DNA of 64,000 nucleotides from Chitinophagaceae bacterium IBVUCB1 (lineage in GTDB: Bacteria; Bacteroidota; Bacteroidia; Chitinophagales; Chitinophagaceae). Of the stretch, positions 102 through 49,472 are shown piece by piece. The notes under the pieces were generated by a model. The model saw only the letters and a program-made list of their open reading frames with translations. It searched no databases and was not told where the DNA came from. Both the position numbers and the translations under genes were made by a program. Position 1 is the first letter of the stretch; each line of letters begins with the position of its first letter. The stretch lies in contig NFUW01000002.1 in NCBI GenBank assembly GCA_002127285.1, forward strand, positions 706,744 to 770,743, written 5' to 3'.

Positions 102-995
102 TCACACCCAATCTCCCAAATCGCTGCCGTCTGTATGGTGCATCAGTAGCTGGCTGGTAGTGCAGTGGGGTATCTGCTGCCCTATGGCATGCCACACATC
201 ATACGCCCCAGCATCGGGGAAGAGAACCACCCTGCGCCCACGCAGCACACGGCATTTTTCTACCGTCAGGTTGCGGATGCCACCCGTTGCCAACCATAGG
301 TATTGCGGCAGGCAGATGCTGCATATAAGTGCCGTCTTCTCGCTTTCGGCTATGGCTACGGGGCGGTTGTCTGTACGCAGCAGATGCTCTCCAAACAAGC
401 ACTGGCGCAGCTCGTAGCCCTGCAAGGGGTGTATGCTATGTACCCAACGAACGGCAGGCACACCGTCTTTTATGCGTTTGCCCGTATGCTTATCGTATGC
501 CATTACCTTGCCCGCCCGTATATTGTTTGCCACATCTATTTGCCAAAAAATTGTATCGTTGCCATGCGTACCTATGCGGTAGGTATCTATCACACGCTCC
601 AACGCAGGCCATCCGTATTTGTGAAATATATACAGCATCAGGTGGTTGTTGCTATAACAGCAGAGAGATTGCTGATGAATAGTACAGAGTTGTGAGTAGA
701 ATGCAGAAAGTGCAGGTTGAGCATTCCTACTGTATGTTTTGGAATGCTGATTTAGATATTCAGATTTAGAACTTCCCTTACGGGCATTCGTATTCAGATA
801 TTCGGATTTGATATTTGGCTTCACATGATACCCGCATTGCTGCTCTCTGTTGCAACGCCCTATATCATTGCCCAAGTGCTGCCCCGTATGCGCATCTATA
901 TAGCGAACGAAAGCATGTTTTGTGCCGCATTGCGGACAGGTGTAGCGTGTCTTTATGCCCTTGTAAGGCTCTAATCTGTAGCGATAGTTTTTCAT
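102..995 (-). CDS. DUF6371/Toprim-like primase of a mobile-element replication module
   Basis: A 297-aa protein with a zinc-binding N-terminus (C20, C23, C48, C54) that includes CPQCG followed later by CNREQQCGYH. This resembles the CHC2-like finger of the DUF6371 family found on Bacteroidota mobile elements. The C-terminal half looks Toprim-like: AESEKTALI (216-224, with E217 and E219 acidic) and LFPDAGAYDVW (258-268, with D261 and D266). Proteins of this layout are thought to make primers or act in element replication. KSEYLN occurs twice (63-68, 78-83), a small internal duplication. The gene lies on the same strand as the RepA-like helicase upstream, which supports a replication module. 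No relaxase or integrase is visible in the window. Family assignment is from recognised motifs; primase activity is inferred. Confidence 0.7.
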   Translation of the reverse strand: MKNYRYRLEPYKGIKTRYTCPQCGTKHAFVRYIDAHTGQHLGNDIGRCNREQQCGYHVKPNIKSEYLNTNARKGSSKSEYLNQHSKTYSRNAQPALSAFYSQLCTIHQQSLCCYSNNHLMLYIFHKYGWPALERVIDTYRIGTHGNDTIFWQIDVANNIRAGKVMAYDKHTGKRIKDGVPAVRWVHSIHPLQGYELRQCLFGEHLLRTDNRPVAIAESEKTALICSICLPQYLWLATGGIRNLTVEKCRVLRGRRVVLFPDAGAYDVWHAIGQQIPHCTTSQLLMHHTDGSDLGDWV

Positions 996-1031
996 TGTAT
1001 GGGGTGGTTTTTTTGTGTGATTTATTTATCG

Positions 1032-1120
1032 TGTCATTGCGAGCGATAGTGAAGCAACTTCGTGGAATGAGGGGCATCAGTAAAAATGAGTGTCATGGCG
1101 AAGAATGAAGCCATCTCACG
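1032..1120. repeat. Two REP-like repeats
   Basis: The first (1032-1057) begins TGTCATTGCGAGCGA and continues into GAAGCAA, a dispersed intergenic palindromic repeat type common in Bacteroidota genomes. The second (1091-1120) is TGTCATGGCGAAG followed by GAAGCCATCTCACG, with the internal pairing TGGC...GCCA. A third copy of this second type lies at 1456-1485 in the same orientation. Confidence 0.65.
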
Positions 1121-1174
1121 AAATGAGTGGTGTACTCGCTGCGAGTATTTTGCTGCGCTCACGCCTGCGCTTCC

Positions 1175-1204
1175 TTTCTTTCTTTTGGCAGCAAAAGAAA
1201 GAAA
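1175..1204. repeat. Perfect 13-bp inverted repeat
   Basis: TTTCTTTCTTTTG (1175-1187) is followed after 4 nt by its exact reverse complement (1192-1204). It can form a stable hairpin on either strand. It lies within the 600-nt gene-free stretch 996-1599, between the primase and SEFIR genes, which holds only repeats. Confidence 0.7.
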
Positions 1205-1263
1205 CAAAGACCGCGAAGCAGCATGAATACCTTTAAAAGACAAACAACTAATGAATAAAAACT

Positions 1264-1297
1264 GCCACGCATTAATTACTGCGTAATGCGCGGTGGC
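1264..1297. repeat. Imperfect hairpin
   Basis: GCCACGCATTA (1264-1274) pairs with TAATGCGCGGTGGC (1284-1297) with a small bulge. There is no strong T-tract next to it, so it is a weak terminator candidate. It belongs to the repeat-rich spacer upstream of the primase gene. Confidence 0.5.
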
Positions 1298-1370
1298 TAT
1301 CTATTAAGCTACATTACTACTGTACTGCCAAGCTAAGGATTACTATTTGCTTTTGTTACTACGCATTATA

Positions 1371-1435
1371 TGTCTTTGCGTTTCCCCTTTGCGACTTTGT
1401 GTCTTTGCGCCTGACTGCCGCAGGCAGGCAAAGAC
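1371..1435. repeat. CTTTGCG word array (array F)
   Basis: CTTTGCG occurs at 1374, 1387 and 1403, with the variant CTTTGTG at 1395. These are followed by a compact GCCTG...CAGGC palindrome (about 1409-1429) and one opposing GCAAAG (1428-1433). The layout, several direct words then an inverted partner, resembles the GTTCGCG arrays just downstream, but the right arm is reduced. Confidence 0.55.
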
Positions 1436-1455
1436 GGGTGTTGTTGTGTGGTGTG

Positions 1456-1485
1456 TGTCATGGCGAAGTACGAAGCCATCTCACG
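1456..1485. repeat. REP-like repeat, third copy
   Basis: TGTCATGGCGAAG then GAAGCCATCTCACGG, nearly the same as the copy at 1091-1120 and in the same orientation. It lies directly before the GTTCGCG palindromes at 1501-1600. Confidence 0.6.
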
Positions 1486-1500
1486 GGGTGAGGGGTTTTG

Positions 1501-1600
1501 TTTGTTCGCGGTGTTCGTACCCCTATATCGCGAACAGAAAAACACTTGTTCGAGCTTGTTCGCGGTGTTCGTATCCCTGTAGCGCGAACACACGAACAAC
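1501..1600. repeat. Two GTTCGCG palindromic arrays (D1, D2) at the SEFIR 3' end
   Basis: D1 (1501-1537) and D2 (1544-1600) each read as direct copies of TTGTTCGCGGTGTTCG, a spacer of about 10 nt, then inverted CGCGAAC words. D2 is the fuller copy and runs into the stop codon of the SEFIR gene at 1600. The same array occurs inverted at 3103-3157, and as arrays D and D' near 48 kb. The palindrome could act as a hairpin terminator for the minus-strand gene, or as a protein-binding or recombination site. Confidence 0.8.
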
Positions 1601-3048
1601 TAATTCCGCACTCCTAAATTCTCAATATTTAATCCATTTTTAATTAATGGCAAGTCATAGTTAAATCTTTGAATATTATCTCTATTATCCATGTTTACAG
1701 AGTTTACAGCCGCTTCTAATTCCTCTTTATTTGTAAAACCAAACAACGGTAAAATTTTAAATAAAAATCTACTTGATGATGCCTTTTGCATAATTGCTAA
1801 AGACCTAACACTGTAAACCGAAGTTTCAGGAAACCAATAATAATATTTTTTTAAAATCGAAATATAATATAGCAAGACATCTGTTTCTTGTAACGCTTTA
1901 AAAGAAATGCGGGAGTTTGCTCTTTCTTTAACTAAATCAGCAGTAATGCTAATACGTCTCAATCCCAACTTCTTATTTCTAAGCTCATTTAATGTATAAT
2001 TATAGATGCTAAAACTATCAAAGTTAACATCATCATACCTATCATACTTTTCTTTATATACATTGAAGGTTGCATTTAGTATATAACCCAGTTCTGTATA
2101 TCTATCCTTGTCAATCATGATTGAAGAAAAATATAGAAATAGTTCATAACAGAAAAATCTATAGTGGTCGTTTCTTATTCCTTCAAAGGAAGTATTACCA
2201 GATGATAATGCTCCTAAGCGTAAGTATTCTTCTAACAATTTCTCAAAAAAAGAAAACATCTCATCACAATCAATCTCTACAGAATATGAAAGATATACAT
2301 CTAAAAAGTCAATAAAATCGTTTCGGAGGTATATAAGTTCATCAATTTTTTTCACAACTATATTATCATAATTATCAATATTTAGTTCTGCTATATCAAT
2401 TATAAATAATTTTATAGAATTGATAAACGTTGTGTAGTAATCCTTAACATATATTATCACATTTCGTTTCTCATCAATTAAGGCTTTTTTTAGTGCAGCC
2501 ACTTTGTGTGCAGTAGGTAAATATATTGGTGTATTTTCTGTTACATAAGGTGGGGGTGTACCAATTGCAGGTCTTCTACTTTGAGGTGCATCAAAAATAT
2601 TTCGCAACAAATTTTCATAGTTTTCTTCAAATATTTCATCATTACTTAAATCAATAAATATTCTACTCTTAACGAATGTAGGTGTACAAGGTTTGTTTTC
2701 CCCATCATATTCAAAAATTACTGGTAAAAACTTCGTTTGTTCAACGTAATTGTATATTTCATCTGATATAATAGTACTTTCAATTCCAACTCCACCATGT
2801 TTTTCGTTTGCCTTATCTGAGTACTCTTTATTACAAATTAATAGTACCCTTTTAACATCATCGCTATTTACCATTTGTTCCATAAAGTGGTATTTATCCT
2901 GTCCCTCTTTCAAGTCCCAGATATCAATAATGACATGAACACCGTCGTTTGATAACCTCTCTGCTAATATCTTTACCTTCTCCTTATTAACTGCTGGCTT
3001 CCAGCTATATGATATAAATACTTTGGGTGTAGTAGTTGAGTTAATCAT
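1600..3048 (-). CDS. SEFIR-domain protein, antiphage defence candidate
   Basis: A 482-aa protein. Residues 9-150 match the SEFIR (TIR-like) domain: KVFISYSW at the start, IDIWDLKEGQD near 41-51, then YSDKANEKHGGVGIES (76-91), the hallmark segment of this family with E90. The remaining 330 residues have no recognised domain and may sense or regulate. Bacterial SEFIR proteins include known antiphage effectors, reported to act by depleting NAD; this activity is not shown here. ATG at 3048 is preferred over TTG at 3069 because the domain begins just after it. The gene is visibly AT-richer than the flanking helicase and primase genes, and inverted GTTCGCG palindromes flank it on both sides. This suggests an inserted cargo gene. 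Confidence 0.8.
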   Translation of the reverse strand: MINSTTTPKVFISYSWKPAVNKEKVKILAERLSNDGVHVIIDIWDLKEGQDKYHFMEQMVNSDDVKRVLLICNKEYSDKANEKHGGVGIESTIISDEIYNYVEQTKFLPVIFEYDGENKPCTPTFVKSRIFIDLSNDEIFEENYENLLRNIFDAPQSRRPAIGTPPPYVTENTPIYLPTAHKVAALKKALIDEKRNVIIYVKDYYTTFINSIKLFIIDIAELNIDNYDNIVVKKIDELIYLRNDFIDFLDVYLSYSVEIDCDEMFSFFEKLLEEYLRLGALSSGNTSFEGIRNDHYRFFCYELFLYFSSIMIDKDRYTELGYILNATFNVYKEKYDRYDDVNFDSFSIYNYTLNELRNKKLGLRRISITADLVKERANSRISFKALQETDVLLYYISILKKYYYWFPETSVYSVRSLAIMQKASSSRFLFKILPLFGFTNKEELEAAVNSVNMDNRDNIQRFNYDLPLIKNGLNIENLGVRN

Positions 3049-3102
3049 CTTAAATTTATATATAGTCAAATATATTGATAATATTCAGAGATAATACTAA
3101 TC

Positions 3103-3157
3103 CTTGTTCGCGTGTTCGCGCTATCTATACCCGAACAGCGCGAACAAACGCGAACAA
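3103..3157. repeat. GTTCGCG palindromic array (D3) between SEFIR and helicase genes
   Basis: Reads TTGTTCGCGTGTTCGCGC, a spacer of about 10 nt, then three GCGAAC words, so it is the reverse complement of the D1/D2 layout at 1501-1600. It ends just before the helicase stop codon (3160-3162). The SEFIR gene therefore sits between inverted copies of one palindrome. Confidence 0.8.
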
Positions 3158-3159
3158 AA

Positions 3160-4257
3160 CTACATGTGCAGATACTTATTTACGCTACTAACACTTATCC
3201 CCAACTCCATTGCAATATCTCTTTGTGTTAGTAAGGGGCATTCTTCTGCTAACCTCTTACACTCCCTCACCAACCACTCTCTATCCCTATCCTCACTGTC
3301 CCTCAAATGCTCGCCCTCCTCGCCAAAGCCTGTGAGGGTGAAGCGGAGGAAGTTGTGGGGCTTTTCGATGCGGCACAGGGCTACGTTGCGTTCGTGGTAG
3401 CGAAACTCTTTGGCGCGTGTCTTTATCTGCTTCAGGTAGCGTAGTGTGCGGTCGGTAGCGCTCTCGCCTATGCAAAAGCTGCTATCGCAAAACGTCATCA
3501 GCATCTTGCTGCCTTGCAGGTCGTTGCGGTTCAGCGGTTTGCTGGCATCGCGCTTGGGTGTGTGTGCCAGTGCCAGTATGCTCAGCCCGTAGCGTTTCTT
3601 CAGTTCTTTCAGGTGCTTCATCAGCGGCAGGGCATCTTTGGCTTTCTCCGTTTCTTGCCGTAGATATGTAATATTGTCAATAATAAGCACCCGTGCACCA
3701 GTGGTCATCACGGTAGTGGCAATGCTATCGTGCAGGTAGTCTTCCATACAATCGTAGCCATCGGGTACGCACATATCGGGGTCTATCTCGGCACGCAGCA
3801 GCTTGTCTGCAAAAGTATAGTGCTGCTGATAGTCGGCACTGTAGCGTAGCTCAAACTGTTTGTCGAACAGTTCAAAGTCGAAGTAGATAACGGGCTGTGC
3901 GGCAGCCGTCATGGTAAAGCCCTCTATGGGTACACCACGGCTGATGCTGTCTGCTATCTGCACTGCCAGTATGCTTTTGCCCGTGTTGGTATCGGCAAAC
4001 AGTATGCATAGTTCGCCCTCGTACCATAGCTCGTCATACAGCATCTGCGGTATGGGGCGCAGGCTGGCTTCGTAGCTCCATGTGTTGGCGGGCTTTACAA
4101 TAAACATACCCGTATCGGGTGGCAGGTTCATAATGCGGTCATACTCTGCTTTGGCAGCGTCTATCATGGCTTGCCCTTGCAGTGGTGGTGTGGGTTGTGG
4201 GGGTTGCTGACCTTCTTGATTGTTTTGATTTTCATGGTTTTCGTGGTTGTTTTCCAT
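3160..4257 (-). CDS. RepA-like AAA/RecA-fold helicase ATPase with C-terminal HTH
   Basis: A 365-aa protein. It has a Gln/Asn/Pro-rich N-terminus (1-30), a Walker A ADTNTGKS (88-95), a Walker B RVLIIDN (189-195), and the RepA-type motif LALAHTPKR (228-236) followed by DLQGSKML (247-254). This is the layout of plasmid RepA-like hexameric replicative helicases. Residues 340-364 (LLTQRDIAMELGISVSSVN) look like a helix-turn-helix, so the protein may bind DNA specifically. It is encoded on the same strand as the primase-like gene, with the SEFIR gene between them. A minus-strand -7 box lies at 4319-4326. Helicase activity is inferred from the family; the HTH target is unknown. Confidence 0.8.
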   Translation of the reverse strand: MENNHENHENQNNQEGQQPPQPTPPLQGQAMIDAAKAEYDRIMNLPPDTGMFIVKPANTWSYEASLRPIPQMLYDELWYEGELCILFADTNTGKSILAVQIADSISRGVPIEGFTMTAAAQPVIYFDFELFDKQFELRYSADYQQHYTFADKLLRAEIDPDMCVPDGYDCMEDYLHDSIATTVMTTGARVLIIDNITYLRQETEKAKDALPLMKHLKELKKRYGLSILALAHTPKRDASKPLNRNDLQGSKMLMTFCDSSFCIGESATDRTLRYLKQIKTRAKEFRYHERNVALCRIEKPHNFLRFTLTGFGEEGEHLRDSEDRDREWLVRECKRLAEECPLLTQRDIAMELGISVSSVNKYLHM

Positions 4258-47059: not shown

Positions 47060-47119
47060 TCATACAAATGAGCGTACAAATAACGTGAAATGGTTATATT
47101 GCATTACCAATATATCCTT

Positions 47120-47803
47120 ATGCGTTATTTATTGTCCTTATTGCTACTTACATTTCATCTTCAAGCCAATGCGCAGGAAGCATTAGCCTACATCACATTA
47201 GATGATTTTTTAAATAGCACCCCAACTCAACTGCCCGTTACTCCATCGCCCAGAAGTTTTAGCGATAATGAATGGGCAGGTGCAACACTCTACGATTTTA
47301 AAGGCGGTTCAGCTATTATTAATGAAGATTTGAAGCATCGCTGCTTTGCAATAGAGTATCACGACTCGTTGTTTATCAATTTGTATGGCACTATGGATGT
47401 AATGGGATATGCCAATGTAAAGGCACGTTTCGGCACTTACCTGTATTTTACCACCATTGCATCAAACCTGCCGCACCATCGCAGATACGTAGCCGTAAAC
47501 AGCAAAGGGCACGTTACTAACCAAGATGTAAAAAGAGATTACCTGAATGGAACAGGACTAATTGGTTATGGCATAGCCAGCACCATAATAGACAGCAAAC
47601 AAGAAGGACGCTATGCATCGAGCAAGCAGTTTACCTATCTGTACGGTTTACAGGAAGGAGAACTTTTTTTACTGACACCTGATATGATGGAAGAAATGCT
47701 GCGTGGCAGGCACGATTTATTGAGGCTATACGTTAGCAGTGGCTCGCCCGATAATGATGGGGCATATTACTTTTATCTTAGCAGGCTGTTTAATGTAGAA
47801 TAA
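47120..47803 (+). CDS. Secreted hypothetical protein
   Basis: A 227-aa protein with a signal peptide from ATG 47120 (MRYLLSLLLLTFHLQANAQ). The mature part begins YITLDDFLNSTPTQ and contains IGYGIASTIIDSKQ and YLYGLQEGELFLLTPDMM. No catalytic motif is recognised. It is the last gene before the large palindromic element and reads towards it. Confidence 0.65.
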   Translation: MRYLLSLLLLTFHLQANAQEALAYITLDDFLNSTPTQLPVTPSPRSFSDNEWAGATLYDFKGGSAIINEDLKHRCFAIEYHDSLFINLYGTMDVMGYANVKARFGTYLYFTTIASNLPHHRRYVAVNSKGHVTNQDVKRDYLNGTGLIGYGIASTIIDSKQEGRYASSKQFTYLYGLQEGELFLLTPDMMEEMLRGRHDLLRLYVSSGSPDNDGAYYFYLSRLFNVE

Positions 47804-47843
47804 TCTGCACGTAGCTATGCTCTCATTTTACAAAGATGTATTA

Positions 47844-48125
47844 CGCCCAAGTGCGCCCAAGCGCCCAAGCCCCATATTAGTTGGGCAGATGGGCAAAATG
47901 TGCAAGTGTATTATTTGCTCACGATGCTCATTATATTATTAGCGTGAGCAAAATGAGCATGGTGAGCGTTCACGCCTGTTCACGGCGTTCACGCTTTTAT
48001 ATCGTGAACAGCGTGAACGTATGAACGTGTTCGCGCTTGTTCGCGGTGTTCGTATATCCTTAGCGCGAACAAACGAACAAGACTGTAGCGTTGTAACACT
48101 GTAACACGCGCTACAGCGATACAGT
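47844..48125. repeat. Left arm of the nested palindromic element (arrays A-E)
   Basis: Five adjoining palindromic arrays, each made of direct words, a short AT-rich spacer, then inverted words. A (47844-47895): GCCCAA words, then TTGGGC. B (47916-47968): GCTCACG/TGCTCA, then TGAGC words. C (47968-48027): three GTTCACG-type words, spacer TTTATAT, then CGTGAAC words. D (48028-48081): GTTCGCG words, spacer TATATCCTTA, then GCGAAC words. E (48082-48125): CTGTA/GTAACAC words, then CTACAG. The arm is repeated inverted at 48454-48764. Confidence 0.85.
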
Positions 48126-48321
48126 AAAATTGCAGTAGTGATATAGACAACTTATTTAATTATCAAGCTATCACCAATAGTATCATACTCATACAGCCTT
48201 CTGTTGATAGTATCTATATATACCTAAGTATATATAATAAGTAAGATTATTATAAACATCAACAATACATATTAATAATAATAAATAGTAATTAACTAAG
48301 TAGTTAATCCAACTAACATCA
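48126..48321. other. AT-rich core of the palindromic element
   Basis: About 196 nt dominated by TA-rich sequence (runs such as CTATATATACC and TATATAATAAG around 48208-48243, and TAATAATAATAA around 48271-48283). No gene is supported. An AT-rich core between inverted word arrays is a layout seen at some replication origins, but no initiator boxes are recognised. Confidence 0.6.
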
Positions 48322-48425
48322 CGTCATTTCGACCAACGGGAGAAATCTCCTGACTATCAGTACAATAGCTATATCTATCAACATTGCAAACTTTCAGGAG
48401 ATACCTCTCTGCGTTCGGTATGACG
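48322..48425. repeat. REP-like inverted repeat in the core
   Basis: Begins CGTCATTTCGACC...AAATCTCCTG and ends with the imperfect reverse complement CAGGAGAT...GGTATGACG. This is a dispersed Bacteroidota-type intergenic repeat (TCATTTCGA...GAGAAATCTC). It seems to have inserted beside the AT-rich core, between the two arms. Confidence 0.7.
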
Positions 48426-48453
48426 GCAATAATTGAGCTATGATTAAAAGTAA

Positions 48454-48764
48454 GTGTAACACTGTAACACCTGTTACAGCGATACAGTGTTACAGTCTTG
48501 TTCGTTTGTTCGCGTTCAGGATATACGAACACCACGAACAAGTGCGAACAAACTCTGTTCATTCCATTCACGCTGTTCACGCGTTCACGCTACGAGGGTA
48601 TGAACACCGTGAACAGACGTGAACGCTCACTACGCTCATGTTGCTCACGCTAGTAAACGAATGAGCATCGTGAGCAAATGAGCAGCATGAACAAAAAAAC
48701 ACCTGCCGATCTGCCCAACTCATACAGAGCTTGGTCATTTGGGCAATTGGGCACACTTGGGCAT
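48454..48764. repeat. Right arm of the nested palindromic element (arrays E'-A')
   Basis: The same five arrays in reverse order and reverse complement: E' (48454-48495), D' (48497-48552), C' (48553-48625), B' (48624-48690), A' (48707-48764). By eye, D' matches the reverse complement of D at about 50 of 55 positions; C', B' and A' are clearly related but more diverged, with extra words in B' and A'. No protein-coding gene is supported in the whole span 47804-48815. Confidence 0.85.
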
Positions 48765-48765
48765 A

Positions 48766-48792
48766 AAAAAACCACACTTTGCAGCATGGTTT
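48766..48792 (-). terminator. Terminator for the TPR gene
   Basis: On the minus strand, AAACCA pairs with TGGTTT around a 12-nt loop, followed by a run of T. It abuts the outer end of array A'. Confidence 0.65.
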
Positions 48793-48815
48793 GTTACTAT
48801 CAGGTACGATTATGA

Positions 48816-49472
48816 TTATCCGGGTATTCTTGCCATATACTTAGCCATTTCTTTTACTTGGCTCACTATCTGCTCGTTGGTGGCTTTGCAGGCTTTGGCT
48901 TTGGCAAAATACATCTTCGCGCTTTTAAAGTCGCGGCGTTCCAGCAGCAGACTGCTAAGTTGCAGGTAGGCAGTGGCTTTGCTATCTTCATCGGGCAGGC
49001 CTACTTTGATGGCTTTGCGCATATTTTCCATCGCCTCTTTCTTATTACCTTTTTTGTAGGCTATGCTGCCCAATTGCAGGTAGGCAGTACCCTCATATTC
49101 TTTTTCGGGCATACCTGCAGCCAATCCTTTTTTCAAATCAGCCTCTGCTTTGTCAAGGTCTTCGCCCATGGTGCTGAAGTTTGCACGCAGCATGTAGTAA
49201 GACGAGCGCACGGGCTTGTATAGCAGGTTGGGGTATTTTACCTTATCCAGCAGCTTTTGCGCACCTTCCATATCGCCGTTTTCTACATAGCCCTGTATCA
49301 GCGTCATAGGCCCTATCATAAAGTGGGCAACTACCATCAGTATGGCTATCAGCATAGGTATCCAGCCTATCCACCACGTTACTTCCATGCCTACCCATAT
49401 ACCCAAACCTATCAATACCACTGCCAGCAGCAGGCGGTTGTTCACAACAAAACGGCGCAATGTACTCTTCAT
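48816..49472 (-). CDS. Membrane-anchored TPR protein
   Basis: A 218-aa protein with two N-terminal helices (about 14-31 and 33-55), followed by TPR-like helical repeats (about 60-205), e.g. YLQLGSIAYKKGNKKEAMENMRKA and AYLQLSSLLLERRDFKSAKMYF-type units. Such proteins act as scaffolds at the membrane. The function is unknown. It reads towards the palindromic element. Confidence 0.8.
   Translation of the reverse strand: MKSTLRRFVVNNRLLLAVVLIGLGIWVGMEVTWWIGWIPMLIAILMVVAHFMIGPMTLIQGYVENGDMEGAQKLLDKVKYPNLLYKPVRSSYYMLRANFSTMGEDLDKAEADLKKGLAAGMPEKEYEGTAYLQLGSIAYKKGNKKEAMENMRKAIKVGLPDEDSKATAYLQLSSLLLERRDFKSAKMYFAKAKACKATNEQIVSQVKEMAKYMARIPG

Follow-up and report, generated by a model that had tools for sequence, protein, structure and literature searches.

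Between two converging genes of Chitinophagaceae bacterium IBVUCB1, at 47844-48764 of the window (the whole stretch of 64,000 nucleotides that was analysed), lies an element in which five arrays of short words (A-B-C-D-E) are followed by a core and then by the same arrays in mirrored order (E'-D'-C'-B'-A'). What is this structure, and which protein may read its words? The first-pass annotation had offered three readings, namely a non-autonomous mobile element, a replication or partition site, and a binding platform for a family of DNA-binding proteins. A search of the literature (open-licence papers) yielded no description of such an element.

The layer words are GCCCA (A), GCTCA (B), GTTCAC (C), GTTCGC (D) and TGTAACA (E), and the word arrays are palindromic. 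On the forward strand, the left arm is composed of array A (47845-47895; word (T)GCCCA(A), three direct and two inverted copies), B (47916-47967; TGCTCA), C (47968-48026; (T)GTTCAC), D (48028-48079; TGTTCGC, 3+2 words) and a weak copy of E (48084-48125; TGTAACA). The right arm carries, on the reverse strand, E' (48455-48496), D' (48499-48550), C' (48567-48624), B' (48625-48683) and a ragged A' (48704-48763). Alignment of the whole left arm with the reverse complement of the right arm gave 225 identical sites out of 280 (80.4%), compared with 47.7% for the direct comparison and a mean of 41% (maximum 46%) for 20 shuffles. A repeat search of the window revealed four inverted segments with identities of 80-86%: 48028-48123/48455-48550 (85%), 47913-48009/48583-48679 (84%), 47855-47895/48704-48744 (80%) and 47841-47868/48739-48766 (86%). 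The claim that five side-by-side arrays recur in reverse as reverse complements was therefore confirmed, with a mirrored order that is free of errors.

An array detector found nine arrays in the window, compared with a mean of 0.5 in 10 mononucleotide shuffles, and no array in dinucleotide shuffles of the element (n=20). Seven of the nine fall inside the element, with E, E' and A' lying under the detection threshold. A typical array is built of a 6-nt word that is usually repeated three times in direct orientation and, beyond a spacer, twice in inverted orientation, in steps of approx. 8-10 bp; the number of copies ranges from two to four (direct) and from two to three (inverted), to which E, E' and A' conform only loosely. 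On the opposite side of the core the arrays tend to have two plus three words instead of three plus two, and among 28 hand-listed pairs from several loci the excess of direct words was larger in the left array in 20, equal in 5 and smaller in 3. The described anatomy of direct words, AT-rich spacer and inverted words is thus correct as regards the palindromic words, while array E is nearly devoid of an AT-rich spacer and both E and A' are weak. The same two stand apart in folding: the hairpin z-scores are -0.57 for the left E (weak) and -1.21 for the right A' (ragged), and -2.17 to -6.22 for the other eight arrays.

The element is bordered by a gene for a DUF6563 protein on the left (47090-47803, forward strand) and by a gene for a TPR protein on the right (48816-49472, reverse strand), the latter present in 15 of 15 genomes of the genus. 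These genes converge on a gap of 1012 nt, in which, as the first-pass annotation had noted, no gene is accommodated: the longest ORF lying wholly inside it has 94 aa and overlaps the arrays. No structural RNA spanning the element was found either, since an Rfam search matched no family at E up to 1.

The core (48126-48454) contains no gene that could be found by the ORF list or tblastn. Its left part (48126-48320) has a GC content of only 23%, and 48322-48425 is occupied by a pair of palindromic, CGTC-ended repeats, copies of which are dispersed elsewhere in the genome. CGTC-ended palindromic repeats are a kind of REP described in PMC3733652. The genome has a single Y1 transposase gene (G000:C2:1017136-1017480; L034, L045), a possible mover of REP repeats. 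Two candidate explanations were rejected. A decayed gene in the core was sought by tblastn with six sister cargo proteins (best E 0.12), and an origin of the whole element as a REP/RAYT system fits only the core repeat, the word arrays not being dispersed. When 400 kb of the same genome were sampled as 20 regularly spaced pieces of 20 kb, only two hits were obtained, which is close to the rate in shuffled sequence (4 in 1.2 Mb); the arrays are therefore not scattered.

With respect to the mobile-element reading, we found no target duplication at this copy, the flanks sharing no sequence of more than 4 nt, and none of the 15 genus loci around the TPR gene offered a clean empty site. Eleven of these 15 loci (one of them, L147, ends at a contig end) are devoid of an array, and their neighbouring genes differ, so that no insertion junction could be read. 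Genes for RepA and for a DUF6371 primase are absent from the flanks of 47844-48764; both flank related arrays at 1501-3157 of the window.

These related arrays belong to a small integrated unit (102-4257), inserted between genes identified by eye as FTCD and bacilliredoxin, which in genomes G004 and G002 are only approx. 0.4-0.5 kb apart. All three of its genes lie on the reverse strand: a repA-like gene (3160-4257) encoding an AAA_25 domain and a C-terminal helix-turn-helix with the recognition helix ISVSSVNKY, a cargo gene for a TIR/SEFIR protein (1600-3069; PADLOC bSEFIR), and the DUF6371 gene (102-995), the partner of repA, whose product has a DnaG/T7-type primase fold. One TGTTCGC array (3104-3157, reverse strand) directly follows the repA stop codon, and two more (1501-1599, forward strand) mirror it beyond the cargo gene. 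The D arrays of the element align with the array at 3104-3157 as nearly the same sequence, and the resident RepA is a putative reader of word D. Among the five words, D is the only one for which a RepA gene was found in this genome, which has one more for TGTCCC.

In the genus 20 repA homologues were found, distributed over 10 of 15 genomes, and in all 20 an array is located within 13 nt of the stop codon. At most of these loci repA is followed by its array, then by a single cargo gene and finally by another array that repeats the word in mirror image. When the words at the two ends of a cassette were scored by count, with nine words to choose from, 17 of 17 cassettes had matching ends (0 of 20000 shuffles); the other three of the 20 also agree, the window by count and L221 and L225 by eye. 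For 12 of the 20 cargo proteins a match to a defence family or a PADLOC candidate was obtained (bSEFIR, AIPR/AbiU, GajA- and OLD-like ATPases, TIR, SIR2, Fic, PDC-S31), and for the other eight no such match, where the cargos of L223, L228, L232 and L233 were compared with Pfam only and one protein each was scanned for L221 and L222, which have several frames. The matches of L230, L233 and L236 are weak; L233 was included on account of a similarity to L230 judged by eye and of a Nuc_deoxyrib_tr match below threshold. The repA units L221, L224 and L225, all different, occupy one and the same chromosomal site in three species. Avoidance of equal RepA words within one genome was not significant (P 0.39 and 0.46). 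A short ORF, GIY-YIG-like by eye, was noted near repA units (L220, L223, L224, L313), and at L228 the DUF6371 gene is split into two frames, which suggests that this unit may be decaying.

All five words of the element also occur beside repA genes: A beside genes with the helix [SG]KG[ST]V (L225, L233), B with STGTVSKY (L224), C with [SA][VL]xxVN (L072, L101, L113 and the viral contigs L348, L349, L352, L356, L357), D in the window, and E with [SN][HA]MKV (L260, L262, L290 and the viral contigs L350, L351, L354). The association between word and helix was analyzed in a set of 39 repA-array pairs, counting only pairs of proteins with a body identity of up to 0.62 and pooling TGTTCA with TGTTCG, TGCTCA with TGCTCC, and TGTCCC with TGTCCA; since C and D are thereby treated as variants of one class, the five words cover four helix classes. 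The recognition helices were 0.61 identical in 87 same-word pairs and 0.33 identical in 418 different-word pairs (0 of 2000 label shuffles), at equal identity of the protein bodies (0.516 and 0.510, respectively). In a scan of 343 alignment columns the four strongest (aa 360, 345, 362 and 356) were located in the helix-turn-helix and the fifth (aa 52) outside it. The correspondences are TGTTCA/TGTTCG with [SA][VL]xxVN, TGTCCC/TGTCCA with [SG]K[ST]T, TGCTCA/TGCTCC with [SG]TGTVS, TGCCCA with [SG]KG[ST]V, GTTTCA with SAATVN, and TGTAAC with [SN][HA]MKV.

Rows were omitted from this test because they are copies of L281 (L284, L288), have another repeat type (L267, L268, L274, L275), have an array that is unclear or lies inside the gene (L291, L292), have no array by eye (L294, L296, L297, L301), or are fragments or fail the frame filter (L264, L269-L273, L277-L280, L298, L299, L302, L303); the near-duplicates L265/L266 and L085/L125 were retained, and 12 viral contigs were kept outside it. 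The four homologues without a palindromic array behind the gene (L294, L296, L297, L301) are distant ones. In a RepA subfamily (L267, L268, L274) the gene is followed by TGGAAC, TGGGAC or TGGTAC as direct repeats, not by palindromic arrays.

The viral contigs, in which a single-sequence search found no RepA and an alignment search found 12 loci, served as a test set, although some are close relatives of earlier loci and hence not independent. Eight of the 12 have a known helix core (SLGAV, SLGTV or SHMKV), and the expected GTTCA or TGTAAC was present in 8 of 8. L359 (SEGAV) agrees only partially, sharing just a CGTAC core with its one precedent, L295, and L355 has a new helix. The helices of L353 (SHQQA) and L358 (SHQTA) begin like the SHQKA of L287 and L289, whose word is GTCCG, yet both carry TGTAAC; the first three helix residues therefore do not fix the word.

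A further line of evidence came from paralogues within single genomes: L227/L232 (G011), L229/L231 (G010), L221/L223 (G002) and L233/L234 (G009). The bodies of these proteins are 96-100% identical, and the members of each pair differ in helix, word and cargo together. In the five pairs compared, the main DNA match broke off upstream of the repA stop codon, at a distance of 9 to 154 bp, with short matching pieces further down. Since the bodies are nearly identical and the 3' parts differ, the helix-turn-helix appears to be swapped jointly with the array, the cargo and the second array. The covariation of word and helix partly reflects common descent; judged from these sequences, one helix of this little-studied replication protein appears to determine the 6-nt word of its element. 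The readings as a replication or partition site and as a binding platform can consequently be combined into one, in which the words that adjoin repA genes covary with the helix of the protein.

Two further explanations have to be considered against this association. According to the first, the palindromes are two-way terminators that insulate foreign genes transcriptionally. The arrays do stand directly 3' of the stop codons of repA and cargo genes, and in eight of the ten arrays of the element the folding is more stable than in shuffled sequence (z below -2). No terminator-like site lies within the arrays, however, the sole one in 47600-49000 being located outside them at 48769-48792, and terminators would leave both the word-helix association and the presence of five different words unexplained; we regard this explanation as very improbable. 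Intrinsic terminators in the strict sense (a GC-rich hairpin followed by a T run) were rejected, as the arrays do not have this form. The second explanation holds that the arrays are REP-like or hairpin DNA homogenized by template switching, with words that have no reader. Tandem slippage and template switching could change all words of one array together, and a CGTC-ended repeat does sit in the core; such a process would predict neither a correspondence between a word and the recognition helix encoded next to it nor the constancy of words between species (see below), and the arrays are not dispersed. Its chances are slimmer still than those of the insulators.

The predicted structures are consistent with a role of the gene pair in replication. 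The RepA model (mean pLDDT 77; 84-93 in the helix-turn-helix blocks) matches KaiC and the T7 gp4 helicase, and the DUF6371 model (mean pLDDT 75) matches the catalytic core of DnaG and the T7 primase. The order repA-array-DUF6371 would thus correspond to a helicase-initiator, repeated origin words and a primase, and from this layout and the predicted folds we infer that the array may be a replication origin. The family is sparse beyond the genus (16 of 298 genomes sampled from the order, 14 of 395 from the phylum) and in annotated records of phages (3 of 50,697) and plasmids (8 of 72,556). Simple versions, with one array and no cargo between repA and DUF6371, were found in an uncultured Prevotellaceae (L085), an uncultured Bacteroidales (L125) and a Bacteroidia contig (L101), and in a Saprospiraceae contig (L113), some genes of which look phage-like by eye, two arrays lie between repA and DUF6371.

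At further sites, nested layers of mirrored arrays enclose other genes in the absence of repA. A DNA search with the element in 39 related genomes gave partial matches in 13 (its own and others; 12 of the genus and one of the order), several of which comprise the dispersed core repeat only. The layer order TGCCCA, TGCTCA, GTTCAC, GTTCGC recurs in G004, G002 and G008, with small deviations: G004 lacks TGCTCA on its right side and G002 lacks TGCCCA on its left, and GTTCAA is an additional layer in G002 and G008. The cores of these stacks are filled with genes, encoding a 210-aa protein in G004, 141- and 145-aa proteins in G002, and in G008 a 145-aa protein that resembles by eye that of G002. In G006, layers of TGCCCA, ATTCAC and TGTTCG surround a gene for a 235-aa protein, which matches HEPN below threshold. 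Stacks of TTTCA, ATTCC, GTTCC and TGTCCC enclose different genes in G006, G008 and G002; all three have the same gene on the right, by eye one for a cysteine desulfurase, and G008 differs on the left. A TGTCCA, TGCTCC, TGTCCC stack in G014 and G009 has a core without a clear gene. With word classes and layer lists assigned by hand from the arrays, the left side and the reversed right side of 15 loci shared 51 of at most 57 layers, and 30 of 34 when one locus per site was used (0 of 20000 shuffles in both cases). In the same genus, mirrored arrays bracket exchangeable genes at many sites.

Two other arrangements were noted. In Mucilaginibacter achroorhodeus (L068, L070, L077 and others), a genome that alone supplies 15 of the 70 stretches of one set, GTTCAC palindromes are scattered, unlike the clustered layout in the genus. 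A second type of bracket is made of tandem 41-bp palindromes with TGTTCGG/TGTTCAGG words (L246 1947-5117, L247 2339-5217, L248 1303-3907) and adjoins a conserved 102-aa ORF and SIR2, FRG/GmrSD or TPR genes.

In orthologous arms the word sites differed between species at 80 of 1037 positions (7.7%) and the other sites at 257 of 904 (28.4%), the word mask having been set on one sequence per pair, which somewhat favours a low word mismatch. G014 and G009 show the same constraint on their words, even though a search of G014 revealed no repA. This speaks for a role of the words that does not depend on a RepA in the same genome. As an alternative reader, another host protein with a helix-turn-helix like that of RepA was considered and rejected, the matches in G014 and G013 being weak (best E 7.4e-4 and 0.0041). 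The simplest candidate reader of the conserved words would be the RepA of incoming elements.

The explanation that we favour, with a probability of roughly 75%, is that the element consists of recognition arrays of RepA specificity classes which bracket an exchangeable slot. It would represent a five-layer stack of origin-type (iteron-like) arrays around an empty cassette slot, the words of which would be bound by RepA-type helicase-initiators, proteins composed of a RecA-type ATPase and a C-terminal helix-turn-helix whose genes accompany a DUF6371 primase gene in mobile elements of the Bacteroidota.

What such a stack may do is less clear, and one possibility is that it does nothing at present: the nested layers could be the scars of successive cassettes, each inserted inside the previous one. 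Several observations are in line with this. At one chromosomal site G006 has a repA and TGCTCC cassette, whereas G002 has only TGTCCA arrays around another gene; L242, L243 and L244 have a common right flanking gene (the left side of L243 differs) and hold different genes between similar stacks; and several stacks, namely the window element, L251, L252 and L245, have no gene in the core. GTTCR-type arrays, moreover, occur in 10 of 10 genomes of the genus with repA and in 2 of 5 without it (Fisher 0.022), and this link to a resident repA suits leftovers as well as decoys. Against scars, the words stay constant across species while the other arm sites change, also in G014 with no repA found, and G000 (the genome of the window) and G004 have the A-B-C-D succession of layers at chromosomal positions that do not correspond.

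We tentatively prefer a function as origin decoys, a reading about as likely as that of functionless scars. In a decoy, an incoming element would meet its own origin-like site on the chromosome, which might titrate or misdirect the incoming initiator (incompatibility); where a cargo is present, a defence gene would be placed between two such sites. A bolder version, which we consider rather doubtful, is that the stack is a heritable register of immunity with multiple specificities, each layer imitating the origin of a particular class of invading replicons. A layer might be kept because it sequesters the RepA of its class or causes it to misfire; alternatively, it might set off local over-replication of a defence gene flanked by the two arms. 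Further specificities would be gained as new layers around one slot.

It is also conceivable, and somewhat less probable than such a register, that the array-cargo-array units are non-autonomous satellite cassettes, copied or moved in trans by the RepA and primase of a helper. They have mirrored ends, exchangeable cargo, shared sites and arrays like those of repA elements, and the repA unit of the window fills the short gap between FTCD and bacilliredoxin mentioned above. The mobile-element reading of the first-pass annotation is partly right for the family, in which different genes lie between mirrored arrays at shared sites in different species. Points against satellites are that neither a target duplication nor a clean empty site was found for the copy under study, and that array words need not match a resident RepA.

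If the favoured explanation, recognition arrays of RepA classes around an exchangeable slot, is correct, a hitherto unexplained DNA architecture would be tied to a readable association between protein and DNA. Provided that the helix sets the word, specificity groups of mobile elements of the Bacteroidota could be predicted from sequence, and defence genes would be exchanged together with the system that addresses them. Chromosomal origin decoys directed against mobile DNA would become an idea that can be tested directly.

Among known systems, one of the closest is the alpha protein of phage P4 with its origin iterons, a replication protein of a mobile element that unites helicase activity and origin recognition and whose site is made of repeated short words. 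The P4 origin word presumably resembles TGTTCACC, which is close to word C. P4 alpha is a single primase-helicase polypeptide, whereas here the AAA_25 helicase-like protein and the DUF6371 primase are separate, the array is a 3+2 palindrome, and the part that confers specificity differs together with the cargo. The attC boxes of integrons are presumably not involved, since words other than GCCCAA do not, in our judgement, look like them.

The same gene pair occurs in Tn4555-type integrative elements (L281-L283). Their TGTCCC array, which matches the GKSTV helix of the protein, is part of the 3' end of repA in L281 and is located 88 nt beyond it in L282. These elements have a single array, no mirrored bracket and no cargo between repA and the primase gene. 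An AAA family ATPase and DUF6371 are both included in the gene list given for Tn4555 in PMC13183296.

REP palindromes tagged with CGTC or GTAG, as characterized in PMC3733652, are likewise short, palindromic and intergenic, and the core repeat at 48322-48425 ends in CGTC. The word arrays differ from the REPs described there in that they lack such tags by eye, form stacks (approx. 50 bp) of 6-nt words and are not dispersed.

A model for the putative decoy function is provided by PER in lactococcal phages, where, according to the account in PMC8965321, a phage is hampered when its own origin region is provided in trans. PER, as presented in that account, relies on a single cloned origin; the element analysed here would extend the same principle to several origin-type words stacked on the chromosome.
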